Shown piece after piece: positions 4,537 to 48,132 of a stretch of 49,999 nt of DNA. A program made the position numbers and the translations under genes. Numbering within the stretch: the stretch's first letter is position 1; each line of letters begins with the position of its first letter. The stretch comes from a virus. Location: the IMG/VR virus record IMGVR_UViG_3300008050_000061, positions 1 to 49,999 of that record; one strand, written 5' to 3'. The notes beneath the pieces are model-generated. The model did not search any database. It saw only the letters and a list, made by a program, of their open reading frames with translations, and was not told where the DNA came from.

Positions 4537-4578
4537 GCGGACCTCCGGCCTCGCACATACCCGGCAGGGGCGGAGGCT

Positions 4579-4872: not shown

Positions 4873-4888
4873 TTATTGTCTCCTGCGC

Positions 4889-7794: not shown

Positions 7795-8264
7795 CAGTCC
7801 TCTCCGGCGAGGTCGTAGGGACCCACGTCACGAGGCGGGGGCCACGCCGACCGCAGGCTGTAGAGGTTGGTCGTGAAGCTGCGGTGGATGACCGTCAAGG
7901 CGTCTTCCAGGGTGTCTGAGAGCACCCCGTCCGCATCTTCCACGTACACGTCGTAGGGCCCACCGATGGGCAGCGGTGGGACCGCAAACTGGATGGTGGT
8001 GGAGTCCTCCGACACCGACCCGGACCCGTTGCCCACCACGCCGCTGTAGCAGACCTCGTCGAGCCCCGACGCTGTGTCCTTGATGCTGAAGGTCCACACC
8101 AGCCACGACGGGAAGAACCCGGTAGCCGTGATCAGGACACCACCGTCGTCTCCGATGGTCGCCTCGTCGATGGAGACAATCGACACCCCCTCCGTCAGGT
8201 CGGAGAGGAGCCCGTCTGTCGAGAGGCCCAGCGAGGAGCCCCATCCGGTCAGCGGCATCAGCAC
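7794..8264 (-). CDS. Small structural protein with IPT/TIG-like beta domain
   Basis: 156 residues. The centre (IDEATIGDDGGVLITATGFF, later YDVYVEDADGV) has the pattern of an IPT/TIG or Ig-like fold, common in virion appendages. The start is taken as GTG 8264; an ATG at 8258 is an alternative. It sits among baseplate and fibre genes and overlaps the next gene by TGATG. It is probably a minor tail or fibre-associated protein. Confidence 0.5.
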   Translation of the reverse strand: MLMPLTGWGSSLGLSTDGLLSDLTEGVSIVSIDEATIGDDGGVLITATGFFPSWLVWTFSIKDTASGLDEVCYSGVVGNGSGSVSEDSTTIQFAVPPLPIGGPYDVYVEDADGVLSDTLEDALTVIHRSFTTNLYSLRSAWPPPRDVGPYDLAGED

Positions 8265-8267
8265 AGG

Positions 8268-9380
8268 TTAGCTCTCTTTGGTGCTCGTGTACTCGGTCGG
8301 CTGGAGCGAGCCGTTGAAGGCCGCGTCCACCTCGTACTTGCCGGTCGCGAGGGGGTACGGCGCGCTGTCCGCCTCCAAGTCGGCCTTGGACGCGTAGACG
8401 TAGACGTAGCCGTGGGTCGGCTGGTTGGCGCTGTTCCATGTGTCGTAGATCACGCGCACGTTGTGCTGCCGGAGCGACAGCATCCGGCGGACGTAGTCCC
8501 CGAACGTCCCGTCCGTCGTGTGCGCCGCCATGGGCTCCGACATGATCTCGTCGGCGGAGGGGTCCTGCACGTTCAAGATGCGGAGATTGTCTCCGATGCC
8601 GGTGCCCCCGGAGATGGCCGTGCCGTCGAGCAGCCGGATGTCGAAGTACAGGTCGCCGCTGTCCGACCCGATGCCCAGGACACGCACGAGGGTCTGCTCG
8701 CCGCCGGACGGCACGTAGACCGCCAGCATCCCGGCGTAGGCGTCCGACCGCGGCGTGGGCGGCACGTTGGGGCCGTAGAACCGCGTGCCCGGTACGTGGG
8801 CGGCGTCGGCGGTGTGCTCGTCGGTGGCCCCCTCGTGGCGCATCAGCGCGGCGTAGATCCGCTGAACCGCCCGGCCCAGGGTGCCCGCGCTGTCGTGCCC
8901 GGCCTGCGACTCGTCCCAGACCCCGTCCGCGATCTCGTCCACGGCGGAGGTCGCCAGTGCAGCCGCGTCCACGGCATCGGCAGCGAGCTTGACGCCCTCT
9001 CCGAACGAGCCGCCTGCGACGTGGTCCCCACGGGCGTCGTCCCAGGGGTTCCCCTCCGCCTGATCGACCTGCACGTACTCCAGCACGTTGCGGGACGCCT
9101 CCATCAGCTTGACCCGGTACCCCTCGCCCCCGACGCTGAAGGCGAGGTTGGGCTCGGAGATGATGAAGTCATAGAGCCCCGGCTGGTTGGTAGCGTCCGG
9201 CTCGTTCATGGCGACTGCGATGTAGCCCACGACCCAGGCACCCACGCCGTTCCACCAGTACCCGTCCGACAGGCGCTGCACGGCGTAGGTCGGGGCCAGC
9301 CCGGGAGCCCCCACGCCAGCGGCGACGATCTCCAGGCTGACGCGGAAGCGGTCCCACGGGTCGAGAGTCTGGTGTCGCAC
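8268..9380 (-). CDS. Tail appendage or fibre-linking structural protein
   Basis: 370 residues. It contains a repeat often seen in phage appendage proteins: VDEIADGVWDESQAGHDSAG near residue 150, with a weaker second copy (DEIMSEPMAAHTTDG) near residue 300. The N-terminal 110 residues are beta-rich. The start is GTG 9380, placed seven bases after GGAG in the motif copy GGAGACAAACGTG, which decides the start. Its position after baseplate J supports a baseplate-attached structural role. Confidence 0.55.
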   Translation of the reverse strand: MRHQTLDPWDRFRVSLEIVAAGVGAPGLAPTYAVQRLSDGYWWNGVGAWVVGYIAVAMNEPDATNQPGLYDFIISEPNLAFSVGGEGYRVKLMEASRNVLEYVQVDQAEGNPWDDARGDHVAGGSFGEGVKLAADAVDAAALATSAVDEIADGVWDESQAGHDSAGTLGRAVQRIYAALMRHEGATDEHTADAAHVPGTRFYGPNVPPTPRSDAYAGMLAVYVPSGGEQTLVRVLGIGSDSGDLYFDIRLLDGTAISGGTGIGDNLRILNVQDPSADEIMSEPMAAHTTDGTFGDYVRRMLSLRQHNVRVIYDTWNSANQPTHGYVYVYASKADLEADSAPYPLATGKYEVDAAFNGSLQPTEYTSTKES

Positions 9381-9389
9381 GTTTGTCTC

Positions 9390-9752
9390 CTACGCTGCCG
9401 GGCGGATGACGATCTGGACCTTCAGGTCGGTGCTGTTGGTCGCGTCGTCGGTCTTGACCCGGAGTCGGATGTCGTTCTGGGAGGTGTTGCAAGTGTAGTG
9501 GAACGGGCCCACCGGCTCGCTCATGTCGAGCGGCTTGCTGTCGAGGGAGGTGAGGGTCAGCGTCGCCACACCGACCTGCTGTAGCTCCACGTCGCACTGG
9601 GTGCCCGGCCCGGACACGTTCAGCACGCGGATCTCCTCGACCTGCCCCGACCAGAAGGGGGCGTTGATGTCCTCGTCGAACACCGCGTTCACGAACGACG
9701 TGCCGACGCCGCTCAGGGTCTTGCTGAAGATGGTGGGTCCACGTTCGTTCAT
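9390..9752 (-). CDS. Small tail-associated structural protein
   Basis: 120 residues, starting at ATG 9752, preceded by GAGAGACAA, which overlaps the stop of the baseplate J gene. The sequence is beta-rich (VGVATLTLTSLDSKPLDMSE). I do not recognise the family. A start further upstream is possible but would overlap baseplate J by about 50 bases. Context suggests a baseplate accessory protein. Confidence 0.5.
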   Translation of the reverse strand: MNERGPTIFSKTLSGVGTSFVNAVFDEDINAPFWSGQVEEIRVLNVSGPGTQCDVELQQVGVATLTLTSLDSKPLDMSEPVGPFHYTCNTSQNDIRLRVKTDDATNSTDLKVQIVIRPAA

Positions 9753-26235: not shown

Positions 26236-27729
26236 CTACGCGTTCGCGCCGGTCGCCAGCTTGCCGATGTTGATGAACATGCCGTTGTAGCCGGGCTTCA
26301 TCACCTGAAGCGCGCCGTAGAGGACCTGGGCCCAGCGGATGCTGGTGTCGATCGTCGCGAGCGGGATCTTGGTGAAGGGGGCCAACTGCTTCCACTTCAG
26401 GACCTCGCTGCTCTGCGAGAGCATGTAGCCCTTGGAGCAGTTCGGCAGGAAGCGGTTCACGTCCACGAAGGTCTGCGACGCGCCGGAGCGGACCACCTTC
26501 ATGATCATGCGGCAGGTCGTGGCCGCGCCGTCCTTGTCGGAGCGGTAGACCTCGTAGTACGAGGTGTCCGGCCCGGCATCGGTGATGAGGAACTGCACCT
26601 GATCGTCGGCGGAGACGGCGATCTGGGCGGAGGTCGCCGGGGCGCTCTTGCCGTAGCGCGAGCAGGCGATCACCTTGTAGTAGTACGAGCCCGCGTCGTC
26701 GGAGGTCCAGTAGGCCGTGTTCGACCCGGCGTAGGCCGGGCTGGTCGGGGTACCCAGGGTGGGCGTGCCCGGCCGGAGAGCGGCCTTGCCGACAGCGGCG
26801 GAGCCCGCCTTGATGCTGTCGGGGATGAAGATGTCCGGGTTGAGCGCGATGTCACCGAACGGCGTCGCGACGCCCCGGATGGAGATGCCCGCCAGACCAC
26901 CGCGGGGGGCCGGGAGGTCGTAGCGCTCCTTGGGGTACAGGATCTTGCTCAGGTCCTTGACCGGGCCCGTGGGGAGCCAGAGGTCGGACGGCGAACCGTA
27001 GTTGGGACTCGCGATCAGGCGCTCGGCCATGTCCGCGATGTGGTCCTCGGTCAGCGGCTTGCCGCGGAGGTCGATGACGTTGTCCGCCTCGTAGCCGCTG
27101 ACGTAGCCGTCATCGAGGGCGGTGGAGCCCCACGCGGTGGTGAGGAGCTTCTCCAGGCCGTCGAACTGCTCACCGACGAGGTCCTCGTCGCCGTCGAACA
27201 GCGACTGCTCCAACTGCTTCAGCAGCCAGAGGGTGCCGTTCGCCGTCTCGCGGGCGACGGCGTCGCCGTGCGCGGTGCGGAGGAGGCTCAGGACATGGGT
27301 CACGCGGCGCGTGGTACCCATGAACTTGATCTTGGTGTACTCGCGGCTGTACGTCGAGTCGTCCTCGACCGGGAGGTCACCCTCACCGATGAACGCAGCC
27401 ACCCCGGAGCCGTAGCTGCTCAGGCGGTTGTACTCCTCGACGGTGTTGTAGGCGGCGTCCTTGTAGAGGGCCTTCCAGAACTTGACGTGCTCCGCCCGGT
27501 ACGTGACGTTGAACAGGGTCTTGTCGAGCGACTCCACACGAAGTGGGAATCCCTCGCCCGCGCTGGAGCCCGGGTTGTCCACGTCGGCACCCGCGGTGAG
27601 CGCCTTGTTCAGGAGCATCACGTCTTCCTCGGAGGTCAGACCTCCGATCAGCGAGTTCCCGTCGCCACCAACCATGCCCTGGTTGGCGAGCCCCTCGTAG
27701 TCACGCCACGTCACCATGTCGCCAGCCAT
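26236..27729 (-). CDS. Major capsid protein
   Basis: 497 residues. The N-terminal arm and E-loop region (GEGFPLRVESLDKTLFNVTY, HVKFWKALYKDAAYNTVEEY) is typical of an HK97-fold capsid family. SYGSGVAAFIGEGDLPVEDD and REYTKIKFMGTTRRVTHVLS follow. Residues of about 318-430 (SYYYKVIACSRYGKSAPATS, TSYYEVYRSDKDGAATT) look like an inserted fibronectin-like beta domain that would project from the capsid. A candidate protease cut (LLNK before ALTAG) would remove the first 42 residues. Start ATG 27729 with GGGAGAGAGACAATG. Confidence 0.88.
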   Translation of the reverse strand: MAGDMVTWRDYEGLANQGMVGGDGNSLIGGLTSEEDVMLLNKALTAGADVDNPGSSAGEGFPLRVESLDKTLFNVTYRAEHVKFWKALYKDAAYNTVEEYNRLSSYGSGVAAFIGEGDLPVEDDSTYSREYTKIKFMGTTRRVTHVLSLLRTAHGDAVARETANGTLWLLKQLEQSLFDGDEDLVGEQFDGLEKLLTTAWGSTALDDGYVSGYEADNVIDLRGKPLTEDHIADMAERLIASPNYGSPSDLWLPTGPVKDLSKILYPKERYDLPAPRGGLAGISIRGVATPFGDIALNPDIFIPDSIKAGSAAVGKAALRPGTPTLGTPTSPAYAGSNTAYWTSDDAGSYYYKVIACSRYGKSAPATSAQIAVSADDQVQFLITDAGPDTSYYEVYRSDKDGAATTCRMIMKVVRSGASQTFVDVNRFLPNCSKGYMLSQSSEVLKWKQLAPFTKIPLATIDTSIRWAQVLYGALQVMKPGYNGMFINIGKLATGANA

Positions 27730-27754
27730 TGTCTCTCTCCCTCTGGGGAATCAG

Positions 27755-27767
27755 GGGCCTCCGGCCC
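27755..27767 (-). other. Hairpin in the leader before the capsid gene
   Basis: GGGCC, a three-base loop, GGCCC, in the 55-base gap between the scaffold-like gene and the capsid gene. It lies upstream of the capsid ribosome site. It may be an RNA processing or stabilising element for the capsid message; no terminator T-run follows. Confidence 0.3.
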
Positions 27768-27784
27768 GGTGGAATCGTCTTGCT

Positions 27785-28744
27785 CTACGCCAGCACGGCG
27801 CGGATCGCCTGCATGGTCTGCGGGCGGATCTGCTTGGCACTCTCCCAGAGCGCCGTCGCGTGCTCGACGCGCCGCATCGCGGCCTCGTCCTTGGCCCCGT
27901 GTGCCTTCTCCATCAGGAGGGTGAGGCCACGGTTCACGTCGGACTTGGTCAGGTCGGTGCTCCCGCCGCCATCGACGGCGGACTTGGACAGCGCGCGGGT
28001 ACGCACCCGCCGCTGGTCGGCGGTGACCGCCCGGGGGGCCGCGGGAGTCCCCTCGACCGTCTCGACGCGGTCGAGCAGGGACTTGATCAGCTTGCCCTGT
28101 CGGTCGGCCACGTAGGCGAGCGACTTGACGAGCCCGCCCTGGGCCTTCAGGAGTTCGCGGGTGGCGCGGCCTTCGCGGGACACCTCGCCCACGACCTCGT
28201 CCATCCGGGCGTCCACACCGTCCACGAGGGACTTGAGGAAGCTGGAGGCGTTCACCAGGGAAGCGGCGTCGTCGTCCTCGTCCATCATCTCCATGACGGA
28301 CTTGGAGAGGTAGCCACCTGTGGTCACTGCCCCCGACTCGGTGCCCAGCCAGAGGTGGGCGAGTTCGGCGCGCTCGGACTTGTCGATGGTCCCTGCGTCG
28401 AGCCGCGCCTTGAGGTACGTCTCGCGGCTGGTGCCAGCCTCGGTCACCGCCGCCTCGACGTTGTCGTAGTCGTCGAGCGCCTTCAGGAGGTCCGCGCTGT
28501 CCACGACGGGCTCGTCGTCGTTCCCGTCCAGCGACTTGGCGCTGTCGTCGTCGGCGTCGTCGGGCTCGCCGTCGTCGTCGTCGTCGTCCGCGTCCGCGTC
28601 CTCGTCGTCGTCGTCCTCGCCCTCGACGGGCAGGGCCTTGAACATCGTCTCGTCGATCGCGTCGAGGCCCTTCATGGCCGCGAGCGACTTGTAGACGCCG
28701 TAGTCGAGCCCGTGGGGCCGCGAGTCCAGAACGAAGGTCGCCAT
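27785..28744 (-). CDS. Acidic scaffold-like head protein
   Basis: 319 residues directly before the capsid gene, the common scaffold position. A very acidic tract (residues about 42-68, mostly Asp) is followed by coiled-coil-like helices (MDEVVGEVSREGRATRELLK, LIKSLLDRVETVEG). Many Lys-Ser and Lys-Ala pairs in hydrophobic context (YLSKS, ALSKS, DLTKS, FLKSL) could be protease cut sites that clear the scaffold during maturation. Scaffold identity is inferred from position and composition. Confidence 0.6.
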   Translation of the reverse strand: MATFVLDSRPHGLDYGVYKSLAAMKGLDAIDETMFKALPVEGEDDDDEDADADDDDDDGEPDDADDDSAKSLDGNDDEPVVDSADLLKALDDYDNVEAAVTEAGTSRETYLKARLDAGTIDKSERAELAHLWLGTESGAVTTGGYLSKSVMEMMDEDDDAASLVNASSFLKSLVDGVDARMDEVVGEVSREGRATRELLKAQGGLVKSLAYVADRQGKLIKSLLDRVETVEGTPAAPRAVTADQRRVRTRALSKSAVDGGGSTDLTKSDVNRGLTLLMEKAHGAKDEAAMRRVEHATALWESAKQIRPQTMQAIRAVLA

Positions 28745-29619
28745 CAGAGTCCTCCTGCCGCCTGTTGTACCACGCGGTCAATCGCGGCGGCGTCCAAGTG
28801 GGGGTAACGGGCTCGCACGATCAGCGCCGCCTCCGACTTGTTCAGTCGGCGGTCGCTGGGTGCGAACGAAGCCAGGGTGTCAGCCCACGCCTCGATGTGT
28901 TCGATTTCGGAGACAAACGGGATCGAGCCGCCGCCGTGGTCGCTCTTGGCGATCGGTGCGTTCGCGGACGACAGCGCCGCGATCTCCTCGTCCTCGTCGG
29001 GCTCGTCGGTCGTGGACGGTTTGTCTCCGTCCATCGACTCCTGCCGGAGTGCGAACCCCTCGCCGGGGCTCACCGGGGGAGCATCGACAGCAGATCCGGC
29101 GGTCATCGCCTTGGCGAGGACGTGCAGTTCCGTGTCGGTGTTCACCGGGCAGTGGGTCACAGCGACGTGCTTGACCTGGGCCCGGAGGATCGTCGAGGGG
29201 TCCTTGGCGTCGCGCTTGCTGACCTTGCCCTCGATCGAGAAGCCAAGCTGGCGCCCGCCCTCGGTCTTCTGGACCGCGGTGGCGATCTCGTACAACTCCC
29301 GGCCCTTCTTGGTGTCGAGGAGGTAGCCATCCGCCCACCAGCCGTTGTGGGTGCTCGCCTGTCCGTTCGGGAGGATGTCTCCCTTCTTCACGCGTGTCGC
29401 ACCGCTCGGGTAGCCGACGACGCCGCTCGACGAGCGCGAGTGGTTGTCGTTGAACCAGCCGCTGGTCAGGAAGGGGGAGAAGTCCAGCCCGTCCTGCACG
29501 ATCCGCTCGGACTGCTTGTCGAGCGCGTCCGTGGAGACAATCCCGCCGATCCGCATGGGGTGCTCGCTGCCGGACTTCTCCCAGACGGTGAGCGGCATGT
29601 GGAAGCGGAAGTTGCTCAT
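28744..29619 (-). CDS. Prohead maturation protease
   Basis: 291 residues, start ATG 29619 in the site GGAGACAATG. Family features: IGGIVSTDALDKQSERIVQD, then WFNDNHSRS with candidate catalytic His60, then GGRQLGFSIEGK with candidate Ser128. This is the pattern of HK97-type (U35/S78-like) prohead proteases that trim scaffold and capsid subunits. The C-terminal 120 residues go beyond the protease core and include a segment (residues 169-197) nearly identical in pattern to the capsid N-terminus. First gene after the candidate promoter. Confidence 0.8.
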   Translation of the reverse strand: MSNFRFHMPLTVWEKSGSEHPMRIGGIVSTDALDKQSERIVQDGLDFSPFLTSGWFNDNHSRSSSGVVGYPSGATRVKKGDILPNGQASTHNGWWADGYLLDTKKGRELYEIATAVQKTEGGRQLGFSIEGKVSKRDAKDPSTILRAQVKHVAVTHCPVNTDTELHVLAKAMTAGSAVDAPPVSPGEGFALRQESMDGDKPSTTDEPDEDEEIAALSSANAPIAKSDHGGGSIPFVSEIEHIEAWADTLASFAPSDRRLNKSEAALIVRARYPHLDAAAIDRVVQQAAGGL

Positions 29620-29961: not shown

Positions 29962-30275
29962 CAGACCTGTTCCAGGCCCATCGCCCCGGCGACGCCGTAG
30001 ATCCTGCGCCCCATCGGGACGCGGTGGTGGGCGGCGGCGCGTGCGATCCCCTCCAGCACGCGGCCACTGCCGTCGAAGCCGTGGTGCCGGATCAAGTAGG
30101 TGATTGTCGCCTGCGGCTCCACCCAGTCCACGAGCCACCGCACGTCAGCGGGGGTGGTCGTCTCCGCAAGGCGGTCGAACCCGGCGAGGTTGGGCAGCGG
30201 CTCGTCGAGGTTCCGCCAGCCACTCAGAACGTGCTCCAGGGTCCAGCCGTCCGGTAGATCGAGGTGATCAGCCAT
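29961..30275 (-). CDS. Hypothetical protein
   Basis: 104 residues, start ATG 30275 after GGAGGGGACAA, overlapping the end of the giant helicase gene by ATGGCTGA. Sequence is helical (PADVRWLVDWVEPQATITYL, VLEGIARAAAHHRVPMGR). No family recognised. Same overlap geometry as 38103-38405 after the other giant gene. Confidence 0.5.
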   Translation of the reverse strand: MADHLDLPDGWTLEHVLSGWRNLDEPLPNLAGFDRLAETTTPADVRWLVDWVEPQATITYLIRHHGFDGSGRVLEGIARAAAHHRVPMGRRIYGVAGAMGLEQV

Positions 30276-33200
30276 TTGTCCCCTCCGTATCGAGCGCGTA
30301 GAGGTCGAAGACCAGCGACAGGGCCTTCTGAACGCCGGTCGAGGAGATGCGGCCCAGGGCGACGCCGCTCATGTCGGAGTAGCTGCCGGGCGGGTGGTAG
30401 TCCACGCCGTTCTGGATCTGGTGGACGATCTGCTCGTGGGTCAGCGTGCGGGCGAGCCCCATGACCCGGGTGGCGACCTCGGTCTTCACCGGGCGCTCCC
30501 TCTCAAAGCCGGTGAAGACCTTGGCCGTCGCACGCTGGCGCTTCTCGTTGCCCTCGTCGTCGTAGACGCGCTTGTCGTAGCGGTACTTCTGGGTCTGGCC
30601 CACGTTCGCCGCGACGCCAACCTTGGTGACGTTCACGAGGTACTTGACCGTCTTCATCACCGCCCGTTCCTGGGGCGTGAGCATCTCGATCAGGCGGTTC
30701 GACACGTCGTTGTCGGTGACGAGCCCGCCGCCGGGCAGGGCACGCATCGACGCGGCTACCTTGCCCCGCTCGGTGTCCATCCAGCCCAGGATCTCCTGCG
30801 CGCGGAGAGACAAATACAACTGCGCCGGGTCGGCGGTGTCTCCGTGCTTGTAGCCCGCCCCCATCAGTTCAGCGCGCGACTGCGCGGGAAGCTGATCAAT
30901 CGCGTCGCGGAGTGCGGCCTCCTGCGGCGCACACGACACCTCGTCGTAGGTCCCGGCCTCGGGCGGGGTCCAGTCCCACGCGCCCACCTTGTTGCGGAGG
31001 GTGGCGATTGTCTCCGTCCCACCGGGCTCCGGCGTCTGGGTGAGTTCCTCCAGCAACTCGCGGGCGGTCGTTCCCCCGATGATCGCCGCGGAGCGGCACC
31101 GGTTGGCGACCGACTGCCACTGGTCTGCGATCTGGTTCAGGTGCCGCCTGGACCCGGCCTCCTTGTCGAGGCCCTCGGCCAGGAGGCCCTCGATCCCGTC
31201 GATCTGCTTCTCGGCGTGGGCCTTGACCGCGTTCAGGGCCTGCCGGAACGACGCCCGGCCCGTGGCCTTGCCTCCGATCTCGTAGCCGGTCACCGTGCCG
31301 GAGTGCTGGCCGCGGGCTCCCGCCTTGAGGAGCGACCCGACCTTCTCCATCTTCTTCAGCTTGGTGATCGGCCCGTCGTCCACGGAGCGCCAGCCGCCGC
31401 GGGCCTTCTCGTACCCCTTGGCGCGCGCGTCGTCGGCGTTGAGGAACGTCTCCTTGGGGACTTTGTCTCCCTTCTTCCGTTCCAGTGCGGCCTTGATCGG
31501 CTCCGGCAGGATGCGCGCCGACCGCGTGATCCGCTGGGCCTCCAGCATCGGGCTCGCGAGCGTGTCGTACTGGATCTGCTCCGCGGCGCTGGGGAGGTTC
31601 ATGCCGACTTGCGCGGCGTCGGAGGCCACGAGGAGGTCGCAGTTGTTGAAGACGTTGATCTGCGTCTTGGTGAGGGCCTGCTTGCTCACGGCCTTGCGCT
31701 GCGCGACGATCTTGTAGCGCTCCTTCAGCTTGCGGATCTCCGTGCGGGTCGCCGCTGCGGCCTTGCTGTCGGACATCTTGGTGGGGTCACCCAGCCGCGT
31801 GATCTTCCGGAGGATCGCCCGGGACTCGGACGTGCCGTAGAAGGGCTTCCGGACGGCCTTCCCGCGCTCCTGCACGTCCACCCAGGACTCCGGGGCGGTG
31901 ACGTTGAACTGGCGCTTGATCTGCTTCCGCTGGTCGGCGGTCCACTGACTCATGTGGACCCCCTGCGTCTCGGGGCCGATGTCACCGCGGTACGACGCCC
32001 AGTCGATCTTGACCTTGCGCTTCACGCCGTTCTCGGTCACGACCTGCTTGGTGGGCCTCTTGGGGTTCAGGCACTTGGAGACAAACAGGCTGGTGTCGGT
32101 GTCGCGGTTCAACCCGTCCTTCACCTTCTGGAAGATGGACACGTTCAGCGCACGGTCGCCCGTGTACGTCGCACCGATGTAGGTGACGAAGTAGCGGCCG
32201 TTCGGGGACTGCCCCGACTTGGACAGGAACGGATCGGTCGGGTCGTAGTGGGGCGATCCCTTGATCACCTCGTTCACGTCCCGGTACCCCATCATCCGCA
32301 GCTTGGCCTCGATGGTCCGGCACCCGTCGAGGATGCCGTTGGCGAAGATCGCCGTCTGCCTGGGCCCGCCTGCGCCGTGGTTCAACTCCTCGATCCGGTG
32401 GCCCATGAAGTCGGCCTTAGCGTTGCCGTGGGTCGCCAGGATGTCGGCCCGGAGGCGCTCCTCTCGACGGCCCGGGTCCATCAGGCTGGGGCGCGGGAAG
32501 GCCACGTCGCCCGTCTGCACGAGGACGATCGTGCCATCGTCCGACCGGACGAGGCGGAGGCTGTCGCCGGTCATCGGCGGATCCGCCACGCTGAACGCGG
32601 GGCGCTCGTCCCAGTCGGCCATCTTGGTGCCGCGCGGGGGCTTGATCTTCAACCGCTTCAGCGCCTTGTCGCTCACCTCCGCGAGGTCGCCGGGCTTGGC
32701 GTCCGCGAGCTTCCGCGTCACCGTCTTGGGACGGTTGGCCTTGAAGTCCCAGTCGCGGGCGGCGAACAGGAGGTGGCGGCTCCCCGTCTTGTCGGAGACA
32801 AACAGGTTCGACTTGGCGAAGTCGTCGCCAGGACGGAACTTGTCGATCGTGATTGTCTCCCCGCGGTAGCGGTAGCGGATCACGTCGGAGTACACGACCG
32901 GGTCGGGGTTCACCGACAGGAGCGCCGCCGCCTCGGTGTAGGTCATGCCCATGTGGGCGGCGACCACTTCCAGCACGTCCTCCGGCTCGGGCCGCGGGAT
33001 CTTGTCTCCCGTGTCCGGGTCCTTCTGGACCCCCTTGGCCCCTTCCGCGGTGAGCGCATCGCGGAACTCGCGCTGGAGCCGCTGGGCGAGGACGATCTGG
33101 ATCTCCCGCTCCTGCTTCTCCATGATGAGGCGCTGCTTGGCCTGCCCCTTGGCGCGGGCGATCTTCTCGTCCTGCACGACGAACCACGGACGGGCGTCGC

Positions 33201-36200
33201 CGCGGCAGATCAGCCCCAGCGGCCCCGCGTTGGGGTTGTCGATCTTCTTGCCGCCGTCCACCCAGCCTGCGGCCTTCATGCGCTTGATCGCAGCGCGCTT
33301 GCGTGCGGCAGCGGTCTTCCCTTCCACGCCCCAGCCAATCGGCTTGCCCGCAAGCTCCTCGTAGGGCATGCCCAGCACGTCCTGACAGTAGAGGTTGTAG
33401 ATCGCCAGGGTGTCGAGGACCTGCCCCTCTTCCCCGGAGTCACCCCGGGCCGCACGCTGCGCCTCCGCGAGGCTCTTGCCGGACAGCGCGTTCAACTCCT
33501 CGATCCGCGGCCACTTGCCCGCGGCAGAACCCCGCGTCTTCTTGTCGAACAGCACGTTCACGTCGAACGTCTTGAAGACCTGTTCGACCACCGTGCGCTT
33601 GCCCTTGTCGTCGATCTGCACGATCGTCTGCATCACGTTGGGCTCGTCGCCACCCAGCCGGTACGCCGGGCAGTTGGAGATCGCCTTGGCGGCGTTGACC
33701 ATCCGGCGCTGGCGGGCGTTCAGGGACTGCTCGTCCACGATGTCGCCCAGGTCGCTGGCGAGGGCTCCCAGGTAGTAGCTGTAGAGCACCGACTGGATGC
33801 CCCGCATGTCGGCCTGCTCCTGATCCGACGCGTAGGTCGCGGGCAGCACCTTGCCGCGCACGTCCTTGGGCAGCGCGATGTGCATCCACTGGCCCAGGAT
33901 GGCCGCAAGCTCGGCCCGCTTGGTGGGCTTCACCTGTAGCTTGGGCCCGGCCTTACGAGACAAACCCGACTCGGTCGGAACCGGGCTCGGCTGGAGGTAC
34001 TCCTCCTTGAACTGCTTGGCGTTCATGTCGGCCCACTGCTCGCCCGTGGACAGCAGCCGCACGTACTCGACGAAGTCGTCAGGAGACACCGTCATGGGCG
34101 TCCCCGTGAGCAGCATCATCATCTTGAGGTCGTCGTTCCACGCACGGATCTTCTTGTTCCGCTCGGCCGACTCGTTCTTGATCCCCTGGTGAGCCTCGTC
34201 CACGATCAGGCCGTCGAACCCGGCCTTCTTCAACTCGTCGGCGTGCTGCGTGAAGTATTGGGGCCCGACGATGACGAAGTCAGCGCCCTCGTAGGGCGCG
34301 GCCCCGACCACCTTCCCGTTCTTGGTCGGGGGTGCCATGAAGTCCTTGATCGACTGCATGTTGGAGCCCGCGCCGACGATGGTGCCGCCGTCGTCGAACA
34401 TCTCTGCGGCGTCCTTCCACTGCTCCACGGTGTTGAGCGGGGCGACGACGAGGATCTTCTTGGGATTGTCTCCTGCCTTGACACGCACCTTCTCGCCGTT
34501 CCCGTCGAGCTTCCACTGGCGCTTCATCATCAGCTTGGCGGCAGCGATGGCGGACACGGTCTTGCCGGTCCCCATGTAGTGTGCCGCCAGCACGCGGCCG
34601 TCGTTGTCGAGCAGCTTCTGGATCAACTCCTGCTGGTGCGGAGCCAGTCGGAACCGCGCGCCATCAGGCAGCGTCTCGTTCAGGGCCACACCCAGGTTCT
34701 GCCGCAGGTACGCCGGATCGATCTGCTTCACGTCCATCGCGTGGCCGGTCTGCTCGGCCTTCTTGGCCGCTTCCGCCTTGGTCCGCAGGGTCGCCTGGAG
34801 AAGCTGGTCGGCTTCCTCCGTCAAGCTCACGCCACCGGCCACCTTGCGGAACGCCGGGAAGGCGTCGCTGGAAAGCGTGTAGTGCCCCAGGGCCTTGTCC
34901 CACTTCAGCCCCGGCAGACCGGGGGGCATCCCCTCCAAGTTGTTGGGAGGCACGACGATGAACCGGGTGTCCACGACCGCCCCTGACCGGGGGTCGAGGA
35001 CCTCCTGCGCGTGTACGAGCATCTGGTCTTCCAGCGGGGCGACCATCGGGGAGACAATCGGCCACGCGAACCCGGAGTCGATCGCCTTGCCCGTGCGGGT
35101 GAAGACCTTCCGCCCGCCGCCACCGCCGCTCTCGCCAGCGTAGATGAACTGCTCCGGCCACTCCTTGGCCGCTTCCTCGTCCTTGGTGGCCTGCCAGTTG
35201 GCGTATTCGGGCTTGAACAGGGTATCGAACCACTCCCGCTGGACCGGCGTCCCCGTGTACCACTTGGGGAGGTGGCCCCACTTCTTGTGGCGGGCTTCCT
35301 CGGGCGTGAGGCGCTGCGCGTTGTCCTTCACGTACTTGCGCTGTTCCTTGTTCAGCTTGTCCGGGTCGAACCCTGCGAACTTGCCGACGCGGAAATCCAT
35401 CTCCTCGATGAGGTTGTCCAAGCCTGCGTCCCACCGCGGAGGTGGCGGCGTGACGCCCTTCTTCTTGGCGGGGATGACCTGCACGAGGCGGGCGACGACC
35501 TTCTTGTCGTTGTGCCAGTATTCGCCTGCGGGAGAGTCGAGCACCACACGGTCGCCCACCACGGGACGGGCTCCGGTCTTGCGCGGCTCCACCTCCTCCC
35601 AGTGGACCTGCTCGGCTTCCACCACGGGCCGGATGTTGGGCTTGAACCGCGACAGCACCGGGTCCGTGCGGAGCAGGTCGTCGAGGCGAGGCTGATCCTT
35701 GCCCGTGCGGTTCTTCCACTCGGAGCCCAGGACCTTGGGAGGTCCGCGGCCGTCGAACTCGACCTGCACATGGATGTAGTGGGCGGTGTCGCCGCGGGCC
35801 TCGACTTCCTTGCTGCTCAGGCGTACCGGGTCCGTCTTGATCGACACCCAGGTCCGCCGCCGCTCGGTCGCCGCGGTCTTGCAGAAGAGGTCCAACTCCT
35901 CGGCGCTCCGCACCGGCTGGTCCACCGGGGTCAGCAGCGCCCGCCACATCGGGTCCTCGATGTAGAACGCGCCGTCGTCGCCCTTGGCGGTGCGGATGAT
36001 CGTCTGGGTGCCGTCCGGGTTCTCGTGGATGAAGTCCTTCCGCTTCAACAGGGGCACGGGGTTCCCGGTGGTCGGGTCCGGCACGAGGATCGGCTGCTGG
36101 GGCTGGAAGTGGCCCTTCTTGTTGCGGGTCCGCTCGGTCAACTCGACGGAGCCCGGGTTCTTGTCCCAGAAGGCCCGCGCGAGGCGGTCGCGCTCCTTGG

Positions 36201-38106
36201 GGTCGGTCGTGTGGGCGAGCTTGGCGTACTCGCCCTGCCCGATTGTCTCCCACTGATCGAACGCGTAGGTGCCGCTGCGCTGGCGGAAGTCCTTGAAGCT
36301 GATCTCCTGCGGGAGCATCTCGTGCGCCGCCTGCCACATCTCCCCGTACTGGGCCTGCGTGAGGTCCTTGGTGGTCTTGCTCCCGTCGTGCAGCCACGCG
36401 TCGCCAGGACGCCCAGAGCGCTTGGCCTCGGCGGTGTTGCCCAGCGTGGTGATCTGGCGGAGGAAGTGCTTGCCCTGGTCGTAGGCGAACTGTCCGATCG
36501 CCTGATCGTGCTTGAAGCGCGTCCGATCCTCGGGAGACAAACGCTTCAACTGCCCTGCCGTCAGCGACTTGGGCGTCGAGAGGCCGTCGCGTGCAGCGAG
36601 GATCCGCTCCGGGGTCACCGGCTTGTTCCCGAACTTGCTGCCGTCGCGACCCAGGACCTGCCCCTCGCTGACGTGGTCCTGCAACAGCCACCACTTGATG
36701 TGGTTGCGGTCGAGCGGGAGGCCGTTCTCGTCGTAGACCTCCTTCACGTTGTCCATGTTCAGCGGATTCTTGGACCCGCTTGTCTCCTTCGACGACGGAT
36801 CCCAGGTCACCAGATCGGCATCGCGAGAGGTCGGCCCCACCCGCAGGAACACCGACCGCCCCTGGTACGACATCTCGTAGAACCGGTCGTAGGCCCCCTG
36901 GTCCCCGATTGTCTCCGGGTCTGGCGGCGTCAGGAACGTGTCGTCCCCCGGCTCGTAGAAGGGCCGGGCCACCGTGTCCATGACCGTCTGCATCGTGGTG
37001 TGCGGAGCCCGGTGCTTGTACGACACGCGGGGGTCGTCGGGCGGGATCTCAAAGATCCCGGTCTGCTGGTCGAGCAGCTTGCGGAGGCGGGTCTTGTCCT
37101 CCTGCGAGTTGGACGCGACGATCTCCTTCTGGATCTCGCGGATGCGCTTGTGGTCCGTCTCCAGGGGCGGAACGGCGTCCTCGCCCAGGAAGCGCCGGAA
37201 GAACTCGTAGACCTCCGGCGAGGTCAACGCCACCTCACGCGGGGTCAGGATCATCGCGGCGTAGTGCTCCGCGAACCCCTCGGACGTGTTCTTGCCCGCG
37301 TAGTTGCTGATCCGCTGGGCGTCGCGGCCCTTGCACGTCTTGGCCCACAGGCGCTGCCACTCGGCCCAGGTCGGGCCGTCGTAGTCCTGCAGGTACTTCT
37401 GGCGCTTGCGGAGGCGGTACTCCACGCAGTGCCCCATCTCGTGGAACAGCGTCTCGACGTGGTAGCCCCCCGACCAGAAGTGCTCGGACTGCGTACGCCT
37501 CGACGCCGCGTTGATCTCGTCCCAGTAGAGGGTGATCTTGCCGGAGCCGTCGTCGTTGTTGTGGGCCCAGCCCACCGCCCTCTTGGACCCCTTGAGGCGT
37601 GGGGTCGTCTCACGGTCGGTGAAGGTGATCGACGAGACGACGGAGTCGAACTCGCGCTTGATCTTGGGTGGCGTGAGGGCGGCGAGCAGGTCCAGGGCCC
37701 GCTCGGGGCTGATCGTCTTCCCGTGGACCTCGTACTCGTGGCCGCGCTCCTCCGCGTCGGGTGTAGGGGTTTGGCCGCTGACCACGATCTTGGGCTGACG
37801 TTCCCAGCCCAAAGGAGACAAAGCGTTGTCGAGGGTCAACGCCTCGCCACTGCGTGCGCGAGACTGGAGCGTGCCGTAGTCCTCGCGCCAGTCCTTCATC
37901 AGGCCGTAGCGGTAGTCGAGGTTCTTCTCGCCGCGCTTCTTGGCCGCGCGCTTCTCGCGAACGAGGTCCTTGGGGTCCTCGTAGAAGTACCTGTACGTCA
38001 TCTTCCCCCGGTAGAGGACCCGGACGCGTCGGATGTACTTGTGGCCCGGCTTGGGGCCGCGGGTGAACGCCTTCTCGACCTTGTCGAGGTGGATCCCCAG
38101 CTTCAC
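30268..38106 (-). CDS. Giant polyvalent protein: zincin metalloprotease plus SNF2-type helicase
   Basis: 2612 residues. An adaptor motif lies at residues 5-45 (HKYIRRVRVLYRG then YRYFY). A zincin domain follows, with LFHEMGHCVEYRL near residue 222 and the third zinc ligand candidate in SEGFAEHYAAM near 275. An SF2/SNF2 motor begins near residue 1170: motif I HYMGTGKTVSA, motif II LIVDEAHQG near 1300, motif III LLTGTPMT near 1333. Its second half is far downstream (VASDAAQVGMNLPS near 2160 and QRITRSAR near 2190), so about 800 residues are inserted between the two lobes. The design recalls P1 DarB-like and other virion-injected proteins that act on host defence or DNA. GTG start overlaps the upstream stop by GTGA. 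Confidence 0.82.
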   Translation of the reverse strand: MKLGIHLDKVEKAFTRGPKPGHKYIRRVRVLYRGKMTYRYFYEDPKDLVREKRAAKKRGEKNLDYRYGLMKDWREDYGTLQSRARSGEALTLDNALSPLGWERQPKIVVSGQTPTPDAEERGHEYEVHGKTISPERALDLLAALTPPKIKREFDSVVSSITFTDRETTPRLKGSKRAVGWAHNNDDGSGKITLYWDEINAASRRTQSEHFWSGGYHVETLFHEMGHCVEYRLRKRQKYLQDYDGPTWAEWQRLWAKTCKGRDAQRISNYAGKNTSEGFAEHYAAMILTPREVALTSPEVYEFFRRFLGEDAVPPLETDHKRIREIQKEIVASNSQEDKTRLRKLLDQQTGIFEIPPDDPRVSYKHRAPHTTMQTVMDTVARPFYEPGDDTFLTPPDPETIGDQGAYDRFYEMSYQGRSVFLRVGPTSRDADLVTWDPSSKETSGSKNPLNMDNVKEVYDENGLPLDRNHIKWWLLQDHVSEGQVLGRDGSKFGNKPVTPERILAARDGLSTPKSLTAGQLKRLSPEDRTRFKHDQAIGQFAYDQGKHFLRQITTLGNTAEAKRSGRPGDAWLHDGSKTTKDLTQAQYGEMWQAAHEMLPQEISFKDFRQRSGTYAFDQWETIGQGEYAKLAHTTDPKERDRLARAFWDKNPGSVELTERTRNKKGHFQPQQPILVPDPTTGNPVPLLKRKDFIHENPDGTQTIIRTAKGDDGAFYIEDPMWRALLTPVDQPVRSAEELDLFCKTAATERRRTWVSIKTDPVRLSSKEVEARGDTAHYIHVQVEFDGRGPPKVLGSEWKNRTGKDQPRLDDLLRTDPVLSRFKPNIRPVVEAEQVHWEEVEPRKTGARPVVGDRVVLDSPAGEYWHNDKKVVARLVQVIPAKKKGVTPPPPRWDAGLDNLIEEMDFRVGKFAGFDPDKLNKEQRKYVKDNAQRLTPEEARHKKWGHLPKWYTGTPVQREWFDTLFKPEYANWQATKDEEAAKEWPEQFIYAGESGGGGGRKVFTRTGKAIDSGFAWPIVSPMVAPLEDQMLVHAQEVLDPRSGAVVDTRFIVVPPNNLEGMPPGLPGLKWDKALGHYTLSSDAFPAFRKVAGGVSLTEEADQLLQATLRTKAEAAKKAEQTGHAMDVKQIDPAYLRQNLGVALNETLPDGARFRLAPHQQELIQKLLDNDGRVLAAHYMGTGKTVSAIAAAKLMMKRQWKLDGNGEKVRVKAGDNPKKILVVAPLNTVEQWKDAAEMFDDGGTIVGAGSNMQSIKDFMAPPTKNGKVVGAAPYEGADFVIVGPQYFTQHADELKKAGFDGLIVDEAHQGIKNESAERNKKIRAWNDDLKMMMLLTGTPMTVSPDDFVEYVRLLSTGEQWADMNAKQFKEEYLQPSPVPTESGLSRKAGPKLQVKPTKRAELAAILGQWMHIALPKDVRGKVLPATYASDQEQADMRGIQSVLYSYYLGALASDLGDIVDEQSLNARQRRMVNAAKAISNCPAYRLGGDEPNVMQTIVQIDDKGKRTVVEQVFKTFDVNVLFDKKTRGSAAGKWPRIEELNALSGKSLAEAQRAARGDSGEEGQVLDTLAIYNLYCQDVLGMPYEELAGKPIGWGVEGKTAAARKRAAIKRMKAAGWVDGGKKIDNPNAGPLGLICRGDARPWFVVQDEKIARAKGQAKQRLIMEKQEREIQIVLAQRLQREFRDALTAEGAKGVQKDPDTGDKIPRPEPEDVLEVVAAHMGMTYTEAAALLSVNPDPVVYSDVIRYRYRGETITIDKFRPGDDFAKSNLFVSDKTGSRHLLFAARDWDFKANRPKTVTRKLADAKPGDLAEVSDKALKRLKIKPPRGTKMADWDERPAFSVADPPMTGDSLRLVRSDDGTIVLVQTGDVAFPRPSLMDPGRREERLRADILATHGNAKADFMGHRIEELNHGAGGPRQTAIFANGILDGCRTIEAKLRMMGYRDVNEVIKGSPHYDPTDPFLSKSGQSPNGRYFVTYIGATYTGDRALNVSIFQKVKDGLNRDTDTSLFVSKCLNPKRPTKQVVTENGVKRKVKIDWASYRGDIGPETQGVHMSQWTADQRKQIKRQFNVTAPESWVDVQERGKAVRKPFYGTSESRAILRKITRLGDPTKMSDSKAAAATRTEIRKLKERYKIVAQRKAVSKQALTKTQINVFNNCDLLVASDAAQVGMNLPSAAEQIQYDTLASPMLEAQRITRSARILPEPIKAALERKKGDKVPKETFLNADDARAKGYEKARGGWRSVDDGPITKLKKMEKVGSLLKAGARGQHSGTVTGYEIGGKATGRASFRQALNAVKAHAEKQIDGIEGLLAEGLDKEAGSRRHLNQIADQWQSVANRCRSAAIIGGTTARELLEELTQTPEPGGTETIATLRNKVGAWDWTPPEAGTYDEVSCAPQEAALRDAIDQLPAQSRAELMGAGYKHGDTADPAQLYLSLRAQEILGWMDTERGKVAASMRALPGGGLVTDNDVSNRLIEMLTPQERAVMKTVKYLVNVTKVGVAANVGQTQKYRYDKRVYDDEGNEKRQRATAKVFTGFERERPVKTEVATRVMGLARTLTHEQIVHQIQNGVDYHPPGSYSDMSGVALGRISSTGVQKALSLVFDLYALDTEGTNG

Positions 38107-44369: not shown

Positions 44370-46130
44370 CTACAGGTCGAGGTTGTAGCGCACGACCTGC
44401 GGTGACGCCAACTCTACTCCGGTGCGATCCGACTTGGCAACCTGCGGGAGCTTCTCCGCGGCCTTGTCAGCACCGTCGCCGTCGTCGTCGCCGTCACCGG
44501 ACTCGTCGTCCGCTTCCATGTCGTTGCCGTCCTCGTCCTCGATGCCGAACGTGGAGCCATCCCGCTCCTCGTCGTCACCACCGAACGGATCACCGCCGGG
44601 GCCTCCCTCCTGATCCGCGAACTCCTTGGCCTGCGCCCACTGGAGCCACGTCGGATCGAGGAGACATTCGCCCTTGCCGTCTGCCAGGGGTTCCAGGCCG
44701 ACGTGCTCGCGAGCCTCGTCCACCGTCAGGAAGACGTGCGTCTGCTTCTGGAGCAGTTCGGCTTCTGCGTCAGGCCCGCGGTCGTCGAGGCCCACGGGGA
44801 CCGCTTCAAAGTCCGGGTCGATCCGCTGGAGGTAGTACTGGTTCATGCAGTTGAAGAAGAACTGCACGAGCGGGCGGAGCCCCAGGTCCTTGGACGCCTT
44901 GAGCTTCTCCTCGGTGGAGGTCCCGCCCATCGCCGCGGCCTGCCCGGTGTTGCCGTAGGAGAAGTTGACTTCTTCCGGGGCGATCTGGAACCGCGCGCAG
45001 CAGACCTTGATCAGGAAGTCCATCCACGAGCCGTACTCCATGTCCCGGTTGGACATCTGGAGGTTGATCCACTGGAGTTCTTCGGCGTTGGTGATCGGCG
45101 TGCGCCACGCGTTGTGGACGCCGGACACCATCGCGTACCACTGGCGTCGGAAGGCGCGAAGGTGCTTGTCGGGGATTGTCCCCTTGAAGTTCAGGATGCC
45201 CTTGGTCGTCGAGCCCTGCGAGAAGAACCGGCGGTTGTACTCGATGCCCCAGAGGAACCCGGTGATCTCGCGCACGAGCGTCTCGATCTCGCTCATGCCG
45301 TAGCCCCAAGACCGGATGCCGGAGCGGGGGTTCCGCACACAGAAGGCCAGTTCGTCCTGGGTGAAGTCGGACACCAGCGACCCGTTGATGACCTGCACGG
45401 CGAACGGGTCACCGTCCTCGCGGAGCATCGGGTCGAGCAGGCGGATCGTCGAGGGGTCCACCATGACGAAGTACGAGGGTCGGCCCTTCCGGTCGGGTAC
45501 CACTTCAAAGCACGCTTGGTCGAACACCAACGTGTCGCGGACGAACATCTTGGCGAACGTCGTCAGGCTGATCGCGTCCTGCGGCTTCTCGGGGTCGAAG
45601 TACCCCGTGTTCAGGAGGTTGTCCTCCAACTCCTGGGCCCGTTTCTCGGTCGCCGCGGTGGGCGTCGCGTTCTGGTCCCGCAGGCGCACCTTGAAGCCCG
45701 GCGAGTGACGACCGTCGGGCCGGGTGGTGAAGGCGCATACCTGGGTGGTGCGGACGCGGATGATGTCCGCGATGACCGGCACACCGTTGCCGATGCCCTC
45801 CATCGCGCCGTAGGCGAGGCTGGTCGGCCGCTCCCGCCAGCCCATCATCGCCACGATGTCGAACGGGTCGAAGTGGAGGGCCTTGGGGTCGCGAACCGGG
45901 TTGTGCTTCCCGTCGTCCTTGGTGGGGACAATCACGTGGTTACCGTCGTTCCCGTCCGCCTCGGCTTCCTGCGCCGCCTTGGCGAGGCGCTGGTCGAGGT
46001 CCCGCATGCGGGAGTCGGTCTGCACCGACTCGACGTAGTCGTCCATCACGCCGCGGGACTGGCGGACGAACGTCGCACCAGCGCTCCGCGCCGACCGGAG
46101 AGACTCTCGTAGCTCGTCGCGGAGCCCCAC
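44370..46130 (-). CDS. Portal protein
   Basis: 586 residues. Portal hallmarks: VPVIADIIRVRTTQVCAFTT, VDPSTIRLLDPMLREDGD, NPRSGIRSWGYGMSEIETLV, FFSQGSTTKGILNFKG, and VCCARFQIAPEEVNFSYGN. The dodecameric portal is the DNA entry channel of the head. The C-terminus is acidic and ends with LPQVAKSDRTGVEL, a possible protease cut site. Start GTG 46130 is preceded by GGAGACAATCC. Confidence 0.9.
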   Translation of the reverse strand: MGLRDELRESLRSARSAGATFVRQSRGVMDDYVESVQTDSRMRDLDQRLAKAAQEAEADGNDGNHVIVPTKDDGKHNPVRDPKALHFDPFDIVAMMGWRERPTSLAYGAMEGIGNGVPVIADIIRVRTTQVCAFTTRPDGRHSPGFKVRLRDQNATPTAATEKRAQELEDNLLNTGYFDPEKPQDAISLTTFAKMFVRDTLVFDQACFEVVPDRKGRPSYFVMVDPSTIRLLDPMLREDGDPFAVQVINGSLVSDFTQDELAFCVRNPRSGIRSWGYGMSEIETLVREITGFLWGIEYNRRFFSQGSTTKGILNFKGTIPDKHLRAFRRQWYAMVSGVHNAWRTPITNAEELQWINLQMSNRDMEYGSWMDFLIKVCCARFQIAPEEVNFSYGNTGQAAAMGGTSTEEKLKASKDLGLRPLVQFFFNCMNQYYLQRIDPDFEAVPVGLDDRGPDAEAELLQKQTHVFLTVDEAREHVGLEPLADGKGECLLDPTWLQWAQAKEFADQEGGPGGDPFGGDDEERDGSTFGIEDEDGNDMEADDESGDGDDDGDGADKAAEKLPQVAKSDRTGVELASPQVVRYNLDL

Positions 46131-46140
46131 GGATTGTCTC

Positions 46141-48132
46141 CTACTGCGGCGGCTTCAGGTTGGTGCGAGGATCGCGCAGCGTCCCGTCATGGTAGCGGGG
46201 CAGGTCGGCCGGGTCGAGGAAGGGATCGTCACCGCGGTCGAACACGGGCGGCTCGGCCTTCCGCACGAGGCCCTTGCGCCGGAGCGTCTGGGGCGTGTGG
46301 GCGATGGGGGCCTCGTGGTAGGTCACAGACCCCATCCGGAAGGTCTGGGGGCGCGTGGAGGCGCTCTTGGCGATCTCCACGGGGGTCCGGGGGTCCGGCT
46401 GCGTCACGTCCATCAGGCGGGCAGTCAGGCTCTTGGCGACCAACATCCGCGTGGCGTCGTCGAACGCGTGCAGCGCGGTGCCGTGGTGCTTGGCCCCGAA
46501 CCGGCGGCGGTAGCTCACCGACGCGGTGTCCGCGAGCGCCTTGAACAGACGCGTGGCCTGCTCGGGGTCGATCTCGTCGGTGAAGCCCAGCGCCTTGACC
46601 ACCAGCCCGTGCTGGTGCTCCTCAGCGTGGTCGATGTGCAGGAGGAGGTCACGCGCGGCGTGATTGTCTCCCTCGGCCTTGACCAGGGTGGTGGCGGGCG
46701 CTTCCGGCTGGAAGCGGGTGTGCCCGCCCTTCAGGATGGCGAGCGGATCGACGGTGTTCATGCTGTCCTCACTGCGGTAGATACCGTTCGCATCGGTCGT
46801 CCCCCAGGTCTTGCCGACCTCGGTCAAGCCGTCCGTGCTGGCGCGGTTCCGACGCCAATGGTGCTTGTCCCCGTAGTGGGTCGTACTCGTACCTCCAGCG
46901 GCACCGACAGACAACACCCGTCCGGTCTTGGGGTCACCCCAGTAGTCGAAGTTGCTCCGTGAACCCAGGAAGGCCGTGTAGGTCTGGGCGAGGTGGCGGG
47001 CTTCCAGCGAGGTGTGAGCCTGCCCCTGCGACCCGGTACCCTCACCAGGGCGCTTGCGGGGCTTCACGGCCTGCCCCTTGGGCTCGTCGTAGGTGTAGAC
47101 CCACTTGCCGTTGGGCCCACGTCGGCGGCTCTTGTACTTGTGGGGGCCTGCCTTGGTCAACGCGTCGAACTCGGTCACGGTGTCCGACTTTTTGGCCTCA
47201 CCCTTGAGCTTGGCCTTTGTCTCCTTGCTCGCCTTCTTGTAGGGCAGGTCGAGGGGAGTGTCCTTGGGGACGATCTTGTCCTGCAAGTCCGCGCGGAACA
47301 CGCCGGGCTGCTTGAACGACCGGTCCAAGAAGTCCTTCATCGGCATGTCCACGCGGATGACGTTCATCTTGGCATCGGGGTTCGCCGCGAGCAGCGACGA
47401 GTACCGGTGGTGGCCGTCGAGGATGTGGTTGTCGCTGGAGATGACGATCGGCTTCTTGCCCGGGTTCCACTCACCCTTGAGGTAGCCCTCCGCGAACTTG
47501 TAGGTCTTCTTGGCCTTGATCTCCCGCTGGGTGGCCTTGAGCTTGCCCACGGCGATCTGGCCGGGCTTCACGTCGGTACCTTCCTTCTTGAGGTCATCCA
47601 GAAGTTGGTCCATGACCGACTGTCCGTTCGGGTCCGCACCCGCCTCGACCGCCGCCTTGCCCTTGGTCCGGTCGTCGGGGTCGTCGGACGCGAGCAGTTC
47701 CTTGACCGTCTTGTCCATCACCTGGGGCATGGACGAGCGGGGGACGCCCAGGTTGCCGCTGCACACAGGAGGCTGCATCTGGCATACGTCCGCGGACTTG
47801 CCGATCCCGGCGGCGAGCTTCTCCTTGATCTCCTTGGCCCGCGCGAGATCCTTGCGCGTGACCTTGCCGTCCGGCCCGGCGACCACCTGAAGGTTGTAGC
47901 CCTTCAACTCGCCGTCGAAAGCGAGCTTGACCTGCTCGGGAGACAAGAACGCCTCCCCGCCGTTTGTCTCCTTCTTCTCCGCCTTGCCGCCGGGGCCCCT
48001 GCTGCTGCTCCCGTCCGCGTAGAAGTAGCGGTAGTTCCCGGGCCCGCCCTCACGCCGGATGTACTTGTGGGGCGCGGACTTGGTCAACGCGTTGTCCCAC
48101 GCGGATGCTGCCTCGGAAAGGTTCGCGCTCAC
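46141..48132 (-). CDS. Polyvalent cargo protein with ParB-like domain and two adaptor motifs
   Basis: 663 residues, GTG start sharing GTGA with the upstream gene. Residues 15-45 carry the adaptor (ALTKSAPHKYIRRE then YRYFY). Near residues 200-270 is a ParB/sulfiredoxin-like fold: VGKLKATQREIKAKKTY, VISSDNHILDGHHRYSSLLA, MNVIRVDMPMKDFLD. A second adaptor (ALTKAGPHKYKSRR then WVYTY) lies near 320-345. The last 330 residues are unknown and contain several Lys-Ser/Lys-Ala sites. ParB-like domains of this type occur in virion-borne polyvalent proteins. Position next to the portal gene agrees with packaging in the head. Confidence 0.72.
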   Translation of the reverse strand: MSANLSEAASAWDNALTKSAPHKYIRREGGPGNYRYFYADGSSSRGPGGKAEKKETNGGEAFLSPEQVKLAFDGELKGYNLQVVAGPDGKVTRKDLARAKEIKEKLAAGIGKSADVCQMQPPVCSGNLGVPRSSMPQVMDKTVKELLASDDPDDRTKGKAAVEAGADPNGQSVMDQLLDDLKKEGTDVKPGQIAVGKLKATQREIKAKKTYKFAEGYLKGEWNPGKKPIVISSDNHILDGHHRYSSLLAANPDAKMNVIRVDMPMKDFLDRSFKQPGVFRADLQDKIVPKDTPLDLPYKKASKETKAKLKGEAKKSDTVTEFDALTKAGPHKYKSRRRGPNGKWVYTYDEPKGQAVKPRKRPGEGTGSQGQAHTSLEARHLAQTYTAFLGSRSNFDYWGDPKTGRVLSVGAAGGTSTTHYGDKHHWRRNRASTDGLTEVGKTWGTTDANGIYRSEDSMNTVDPLAILKGGHTRFQPEAPATTLVKAEGDNHAARDLLLHIDHAEEHQHGLVVKALGFTDEIDPEQATRLFKALADTASVSYRRRFGAKHHGTALHAFDDATRMLVAKSLTARLMDVTQPDPRTPVEIAKSASTRPQTFRMGSVTYHEAPIAHTPQTLRRKGLVRKAEPPVFDRGDDPFLDPADLPRYHDGTLRDPRTNLKPPQ

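Follow-up and report, generated by a model that had tools for sequence, protein, structure and literature searches.

The window analysed here, a 49,999-nucleotide stretch of viral DNA (positions 1 to 49,999 of IMG/VR record IMGVR_UViG_3300008050_000061), carries on its minus strand a head gene module encoding a portal, a very large helicase-like protein, a prohead protease, a scaffold, a capsid protein, adaptor-type proteins and a tail sheath. We describe a segment in the C-terminal tail of the protease that resembles the N-terminus of the capsid protein. The prohead (head maturation) protease of 291 amino acids (28744..29619; ATG at 29619, stop at 28744) matched the SPO1 gp3.2-like head maturation protease profile phrog_1028 (E 3e-37; to one more digit, 2.7e-37, over residues 30-227 of the TTG-numbered open reading frame [ORF]). 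The head scaffolding protein of 319 amino acids (27785..28744; phrog_15087, E 5e-6) and the major capsid protein of 497 amino acids (26236..27729; phrog_752 major head protein, E 1.8e-80) follow, and the order protease, scaffold, capsid is the same in SPO1. The capsid protein was matched by Foldseek to the SPO1 capsid 9vel (E 4e-40) and also to 5lii, and it narrowly missed the Pfam family SU10_MCP (23.9 against a cut-off of 24.1).

Residues 168-197 of the protease (29029..29118; LAKAMTAGSAVDAPPVSPGEGFALRQESMD) and residues 40-69 of the capsid protein (27523..27612; LNKALTAGADVDNPGSSAGEGFPLRVESLD) align without gaps over 30 positions, 19 of which are identical. When the capsid protein was used as a tblastn query against the whole window, the protease tail was found with an E-value of 4e-6, and in the reverse search the protease tail recovered the capsid gene at 27520-27633 (E 1e-7, 50% identity over 38 amino acids). 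The local score of this pair was 92, compared with a mean of 25 and a 99.9th percentile of 47 for shuffles over all loci. The window has its own sequence type of the segment, GEGFPLRVESLD. The initial annotation had reported the resemblance between capsid residues 41-70 and protease residues 169-197, and these residues and its end coordinates were correct.

Protease-capsid pairs were collected from 103 loci, and 74 were kept after removal of truncated and near-duplicate loci. The mean local score of own pairs was 71.9, compared with 48.1 for permuted pairs, the highest of 5,000 permutations reaching 56.0. The match scored above all 300 shuffles in 48 of the 74 loci and was significant at p <= 0.05 in 63; in the other 11 it was not significant on its own (shuffle p above 0.05). 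The own tail matched the capsid N-terminus better than both control regions in 63 of the 74. As relatedness could inflate the own-pair scores, 11 lineages whose catalytic domains are below 50% identity were used as a control. Own protease-capsid pairs scored 75.2 there, compared with 40.5 for other capsids and 36.3 for the tails of other proteases (permutation p <= 5e-5); therefore, the protease tail is on average closer to its own capsid protein than to the tails of its orthologues.

The two proteins are constrained at matching positions. Between 52 proteases and 50 capsids, positional entropies were correlated (Spearman) at 0.78 in exact register and at most 0.20 at the other shifts tested. 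Capsid K42, A43, L44, G47, G60, S67 and L68 were invariant in the 50 capsids, the invariant capsid positions are also conserved in the protease, and the co-constrained pairs include K42/K170, G47/G175, G60/G188 and S67/S195. Identical codons accounted for 398 of 961 identical residues in 46 loci, where 418 were expected from codon usage (z -1.4); since identical codons are not in excess, the resemblance is old at the DNA level and is kept by selection on the protein. The alternative of gene fusion or duplication raised by the initial annotation thus loses its recent form, as codon identity in the window and the 46 loci rules out recent duplication or gene conversion, and keeps its ancient one, in which a duplication may lie at the origin. 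A profile scan of 12,352 ORFs from the window and related loci found the segment only in proteases and capsids; of the matches initially classed as other, two weak ones came from Thermus proteases that the protease profile had not picked up, and two strong ones from truncated capsids. The same scan rules out a general tag on all head proteins. The initial annotation had proposed that the protease carries a mimic of its substrate, for self-processing or for co-assembly with the capsid subunit. The mimicry itself stands: it is real, conserved across lineages and under protein-level selection, it follows the phage's own capsid protein, and its start coincides with the cleavage site of capsid maturation. 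As to its purpose, the tracking of the own shell protein suggests a peptide for either shell docking or substrate control.

The cleavage site was located from related capsids. In the record of Listeria phage A511, the annotated mature capsid protein (mat_peptide) begins at S24, after K23 of DALK↓SFTTGYG (↓ marks the cut), which aligns with K42↓A43 of the window. The phage 812 capsid chain 9row has 439 amino acids, matching the 463-residue precursor minus 24 (a cut after K24), and the SPO1 structure 9vel covers up to 445 residues, which equals 468 minus 23 and comprises all predicted mature residues. All three thus place the cut at the K↓[A/S] that opens the shared segment, as judged from chain lengths in 812 and SPO1. 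Aligned with these mature starts, the window capsid is predicted to lose a propeptide of residues 1-42 (27604..27729) at LNK42↓A43. Because the cuts of A511, 812 and SPO1 fall at K↓[A/S], the shared segment comprises the maturation site and the first ~27 residues of the mature N-arm. Since up to all 445 mature residues are modelled in 9vel, this arm seems to be ordered within the SPO1 shell.

On the protease side, the segment begins where the catalytic domain ends. The catalytic domain (about residues 20-168; 29116..29562) is mostly the high-confidence part of the AlphaFold2 model, with a block mean predicted local distance difference test (pLDDT) of 84-98, and His60 and Ser128, invariant in 52 relatives, are probably catalytic, judging from conservation and fold. 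The top five Foldseek matches of the model were herpesvirus proteases, including those of Epstein-Barr virus, pseudorabies virus and varicella-zoster virus; their probabilities were 0.96-1.0, with E-values of only about 1e-3 to 2e-2 and template modelling (TM) values of 0.3-0.4. The model thus points to a herpesvirus-type (assemblin) fold, at modest E-values. Pfam Peptidase_S78 (PF04586) was not reached (14 bits against a cut-off of 21), and the protein was not filed under S78. The mimic has low pLDDT and is flexible in the model. Further downstream lies a C-terminal helical mini-domain (residues about 238-288; 28756..28908) with three helices (238-252, 261-271 and 277-288), which shows a K-x-EA...R-x-P...A pattern in the family consensus.

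The pattern hydrophobic-x-K-[A/S] was strongly enriched in the window scaffold (13 seen, 0.96 expected, p 2e-4). Comparable enrichment was seen in most other scaffolds tested, such as SPO1 gp3.3 (11 against 1.1 expected) and that of phage K (7 against 1.3), but not in A511 ORF2 or in a small scaffold candidate of DAC19; the sheath and the helicase also showed none. From this pattern, hydrophobic-x-K↓[A/S] is the predicted specificity of the protease, which would shred the scaffold. The protease itself has such sites at K170, at two positions further down the tail and at K15 near the N-terminus. Lys170 (29110..29112), invariant in 52 proteases and aligned with capsid K42, lies between the catalytic domain and the tail in LAK170↓A, the same pattern as at capsid K42↓A43, and is a predicted self-cleavage site. 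Lys15 of WEK↓S (29575..29577) is a candidate N-terminal self-cleavage site; the lysine of [FW]EK[SA] near the protease N-terminus is nearly invariant in the 52 relatives and resembles a second site of this kind. Beside the portal (44370-46130, minus strand; phrog_12), a 663-amino-acid protein of phrog_2859 (function unknown; 46141-48132, minus strand) contains 10 hydrophobic-x-K-[A/S] motifs against 2.2 expected (p 0.001) and may be one more head protein that the prohead protease processes.

The closest isolates of the window phage are Herelleviridae, among them SPO1, phage K, A511 and Brochothrix phage A9. In the Herelleviridae examined, the segment was present in both proteins, each phage having its own sequence, such as KSMTTGYxHGGTDQ...ALRRQSL in A9, KS[WF]TTG[HY]G.TPDTQ...GALRRE in A511 and K[SA]LEAG..V.P..[ML]EGG..FR.ESL in SPO1. 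With the A511 protease segment as a query, 1,105 matches were obtained in 564 phage records, and two copies of the segment are encoded by about 540 of these phages, whose hosts are mostly Staphylococcus, Bacillus, Enterococcus and Listeria. It was also found in phages of Bordetella, Pseudomonas, Aeromonas and Enterobacter and in Thermus phage Cumys. In many lineages, a linker of ~7-36 residues sets the arm off from a conserved K-[A/S] that closes the catalytic domain. Some lineages have R, N, S or another residue in place of the lysine at the arm's own P1 position, and in Morganella phage Mecenats66 the lysine is lost and the arm kept. The initial annotation had taken relatives without the match as a sign of chance; most relatives have it, and the clear exceptions are Bacteroidota-type phages. 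The protease mimic was absent in Bacteroides phages DAC19/SJC03, gut phage MT835500 and Chryseobacterium phage MA9V-3. In MA9V-3 (positions 3336-4934 of locus L009), the protease ORF has 532 amino acids and 18 K-[A/S] motifs, and the capsid gene comes directly after it, as if it were a herpesvirus-style protease-scaffold fusion. Further fused protease-scaffold relatives were looked for and none were found; fusion is at best a possible general cause of mimic loss, as it is seen in this one lineage and unfused lineages lack the mimic too.

We consider it about an even bet (roughly 50%) that the protease has a self-cleavable tail whose capsid-arm mimic docks the enzyme in the assembling shell, and that a cut at K170 frees the enzyme. 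The removable tail would consist of the self-cleavage site LAK170↓A, the mimic of the capsid N-arm (171-197) and the small helical domain. Before maturation, the mimic would occupy a capsid N-arm site in the assembling shell, so that the protease is incorporated alongside the capsid subunits. Once released by cleavage at K170, and perhaps also at K15, the catalytic domain would remove the capsid propeptide at K42↓A43 and break up the scaffold, which offers many K-[A/S] sites. The scaffold has many predicted cut sites and no arm; therefore, an arm is not needed merely for being cut. Because linkers separate the catalytic-end site from the arm, and some proteases have lost the arm's lysine and kept the arm, the arm has a role beyond that of a cleavage site. 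This separability of cleavage site and arm leans toward docking or co-assembly. In the capsid, the copy forms a structural arm of the shell; docking of the tail at capsid arm sites, followed by its removal from the protease, is therefore the most economical reading, and we infer such docking here. Somewhat more tentatively, the protease may be regarded as a pseudo-capsid subunit: its tail would dock at the lattice site meant for a capsid arm and then be self-cut, and the mimicry would act as a phage-specific code by which a protease is matched to the shell protein of its own phage.

Several observations weigh against docking by a removable tail. The segment was disordered in both single-chain models, and AlphaFold2 gave no confident placement of the protease tail. 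DAC19/SJC03 and MT835500 lack the mimic although their protease and scaffold are separate genes, so some relatives can do without the mimic. A large clade retains mainly G-x-G...L..ES[L/M]E of the mimic, whose first half is degraded there. In addition, an exosite recognising both arms, or a third partner binding both, would give the same covariation.

The main rival is that the tail, as a copy of the capsid substrate, fills the protease's own cleft or an exosite and keeps the enzyme inactive until assembly, to be removed by self-cleavage like the herpesvirus release site. Such a pseudosubstrate or exosite ligand fits the covariation as well as docking does, and the separability of site and arm is the sole difference. 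The match opens with the capsid cleavage site, with the P3, P1 and P1' residues (L, K and A) shared, K170 is invariant in an enzyme with a predicted herpesvirus-protease fold, and a segment that is flexible in the model is what would be expected of a substrate. However, conservation runs ~27 residues beyond the cut, residues that are missing around the many predicted sites of the scaffold, and the arm survives both loss or replacement of its own lysine and separation from the catalytic-end site by a linker. We therefore regard this explanation as doubtful, if still a serious one.

It is less probable again that the capsid arm and the protease tail bind the same site on a shared third partner, the scaffold or the portal, which would bring both into the procapsid. 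The capsid propeptide, the scaffold and the protease are produced and act together, and the arm is missing from the fusion-like, motif-rich protease of MA9V-3, whose gene adjoins the capsid gene. Against this, arm-less relatives that are not fused exist, and because the conserved part stays on the mature capsid after the scaffold has gone, the main constraint on the arm should be a capsid-capsid contact.

A passive relic of gene duplication, fusion or gene conversion, without a present function, is very improbable. The genes for protease, scaffold and capsid are neighbours and the match is collinear, as a common origin would have it, but without an excess of codon identity the match is not maintained by recent DNA exchange, and the same position-specific constraint acts on both proteins while the resemblance persists across lineages. 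A chance match between short stretches of low complexity, which the 11 loci without a significant match of their own might suggest, is refuted by the search E-values in the window and by the 63 loci that passed the shuffles and the 63 that beat the control regions.

Other features were observed around these genes. Upstream of the protease lies a 2,612-amino-acid protein (30268-38106, minus strand) with SNF2/ResIII helicase domains and a weak metallopeptidase-like N-terminus, and a large helicase is found at the same place in Bordetella phage PHB04, Thermus phage Cumys and Morganella phage Mecenats66. In MT835500 (locus L125), a 675-amino-acid NUDIX-like protein, encoded by an ORF from ~1342 upstream of the arm-less protease, contains LQRESLDGETKN, a stretch that resembles the arm end (GLKVESLD in the MT835500 capsid) but is too short for a firm comparison. 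A CRISPR repeat region and a gene of the TnpB family are annotated a short way past the capsid gene in the record of Thermus phage Lalka27b (positions 7626-9705 of locus L013).

How a few dozen copies of a dangerous protease are loaded into each procapsid of a tailed phage and activated only there is poorly understood beyond a few models. A tail that mimics the capsid arm would be a concrete, testable answer for phages of the SPO1/K/A511 type, among them much-studied phages of staphylococci and Listeria, and for their many uncultured relatives. The predicted rule hydrophobic-x-K↓[A/S] would mark the scaffold and other processed head proteins, and the arm peptide might serve for cargo loading into such shells.

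The nearest known systems are those of SPO1 (gp3.2, gp3.3 and gp6.1), phage K/812 and A511 in the Herelleviridae, which share with the window the gene order, a homologous protease and capsid protein, and the segment in both. The window phage is only about 22-37% identical to them and represents a separate environmental lineage. In encapsulins, a short cargo-loading peptide at the tail of an enzyme recruits it into an HK97-fold shell; the comparison is one of working principle only, as these peptides neither mimic an arm of the shell protein nor are released by self-cleavage. The protease gp245 of SPN3US sheds a 64-residue C-terminal propeptide by self-cleavage, and a truncated active form was not found in its proheads, for which reason the authors proposed a packaging signal (PMC7411985, PMC10052503). 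In this respect, SPN3US gp245 and T4 gp21 are prohead proteases whose self-cleaved C-terminal propeptide is similar to the predicted tail in the window. SPN3US gp245 cuts after A-x-E, whereas K↓[A/S] is predicted for the window protease, and a resemblance of the gp245 propeptide to the capsid N-arm is not mentioned in the sections consulted. The HK97 protease gp4, whose functional domains and encapsidation were reportedly analysed by Duda, Oh and Hendrix in 2013 (cited in PMC12749128), enters the prohead together with the capsid protein and acts on a capsid N-terminal domain. The scaffold of HK97 is part of the capsid protein (PMC12749128). C-terminal protease propeptides are thus already known as proposed packaging signals, and what appears to be new is a tail that copies the capsid arm, of which no description was found in a literature search whose scope excluded most subscription papers. 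Herpesvirus maturational proteases of the UL26/UL80 type carry a self-cleavage site at the end of the catalytic domain. The window protease shares with them the fold, according to Foldseek, and a similar layout of the release site. In herpesviruses, however, the protease is fused to the scaffold, whereas in the window the tail copies the capsid protein and not the scaffold.

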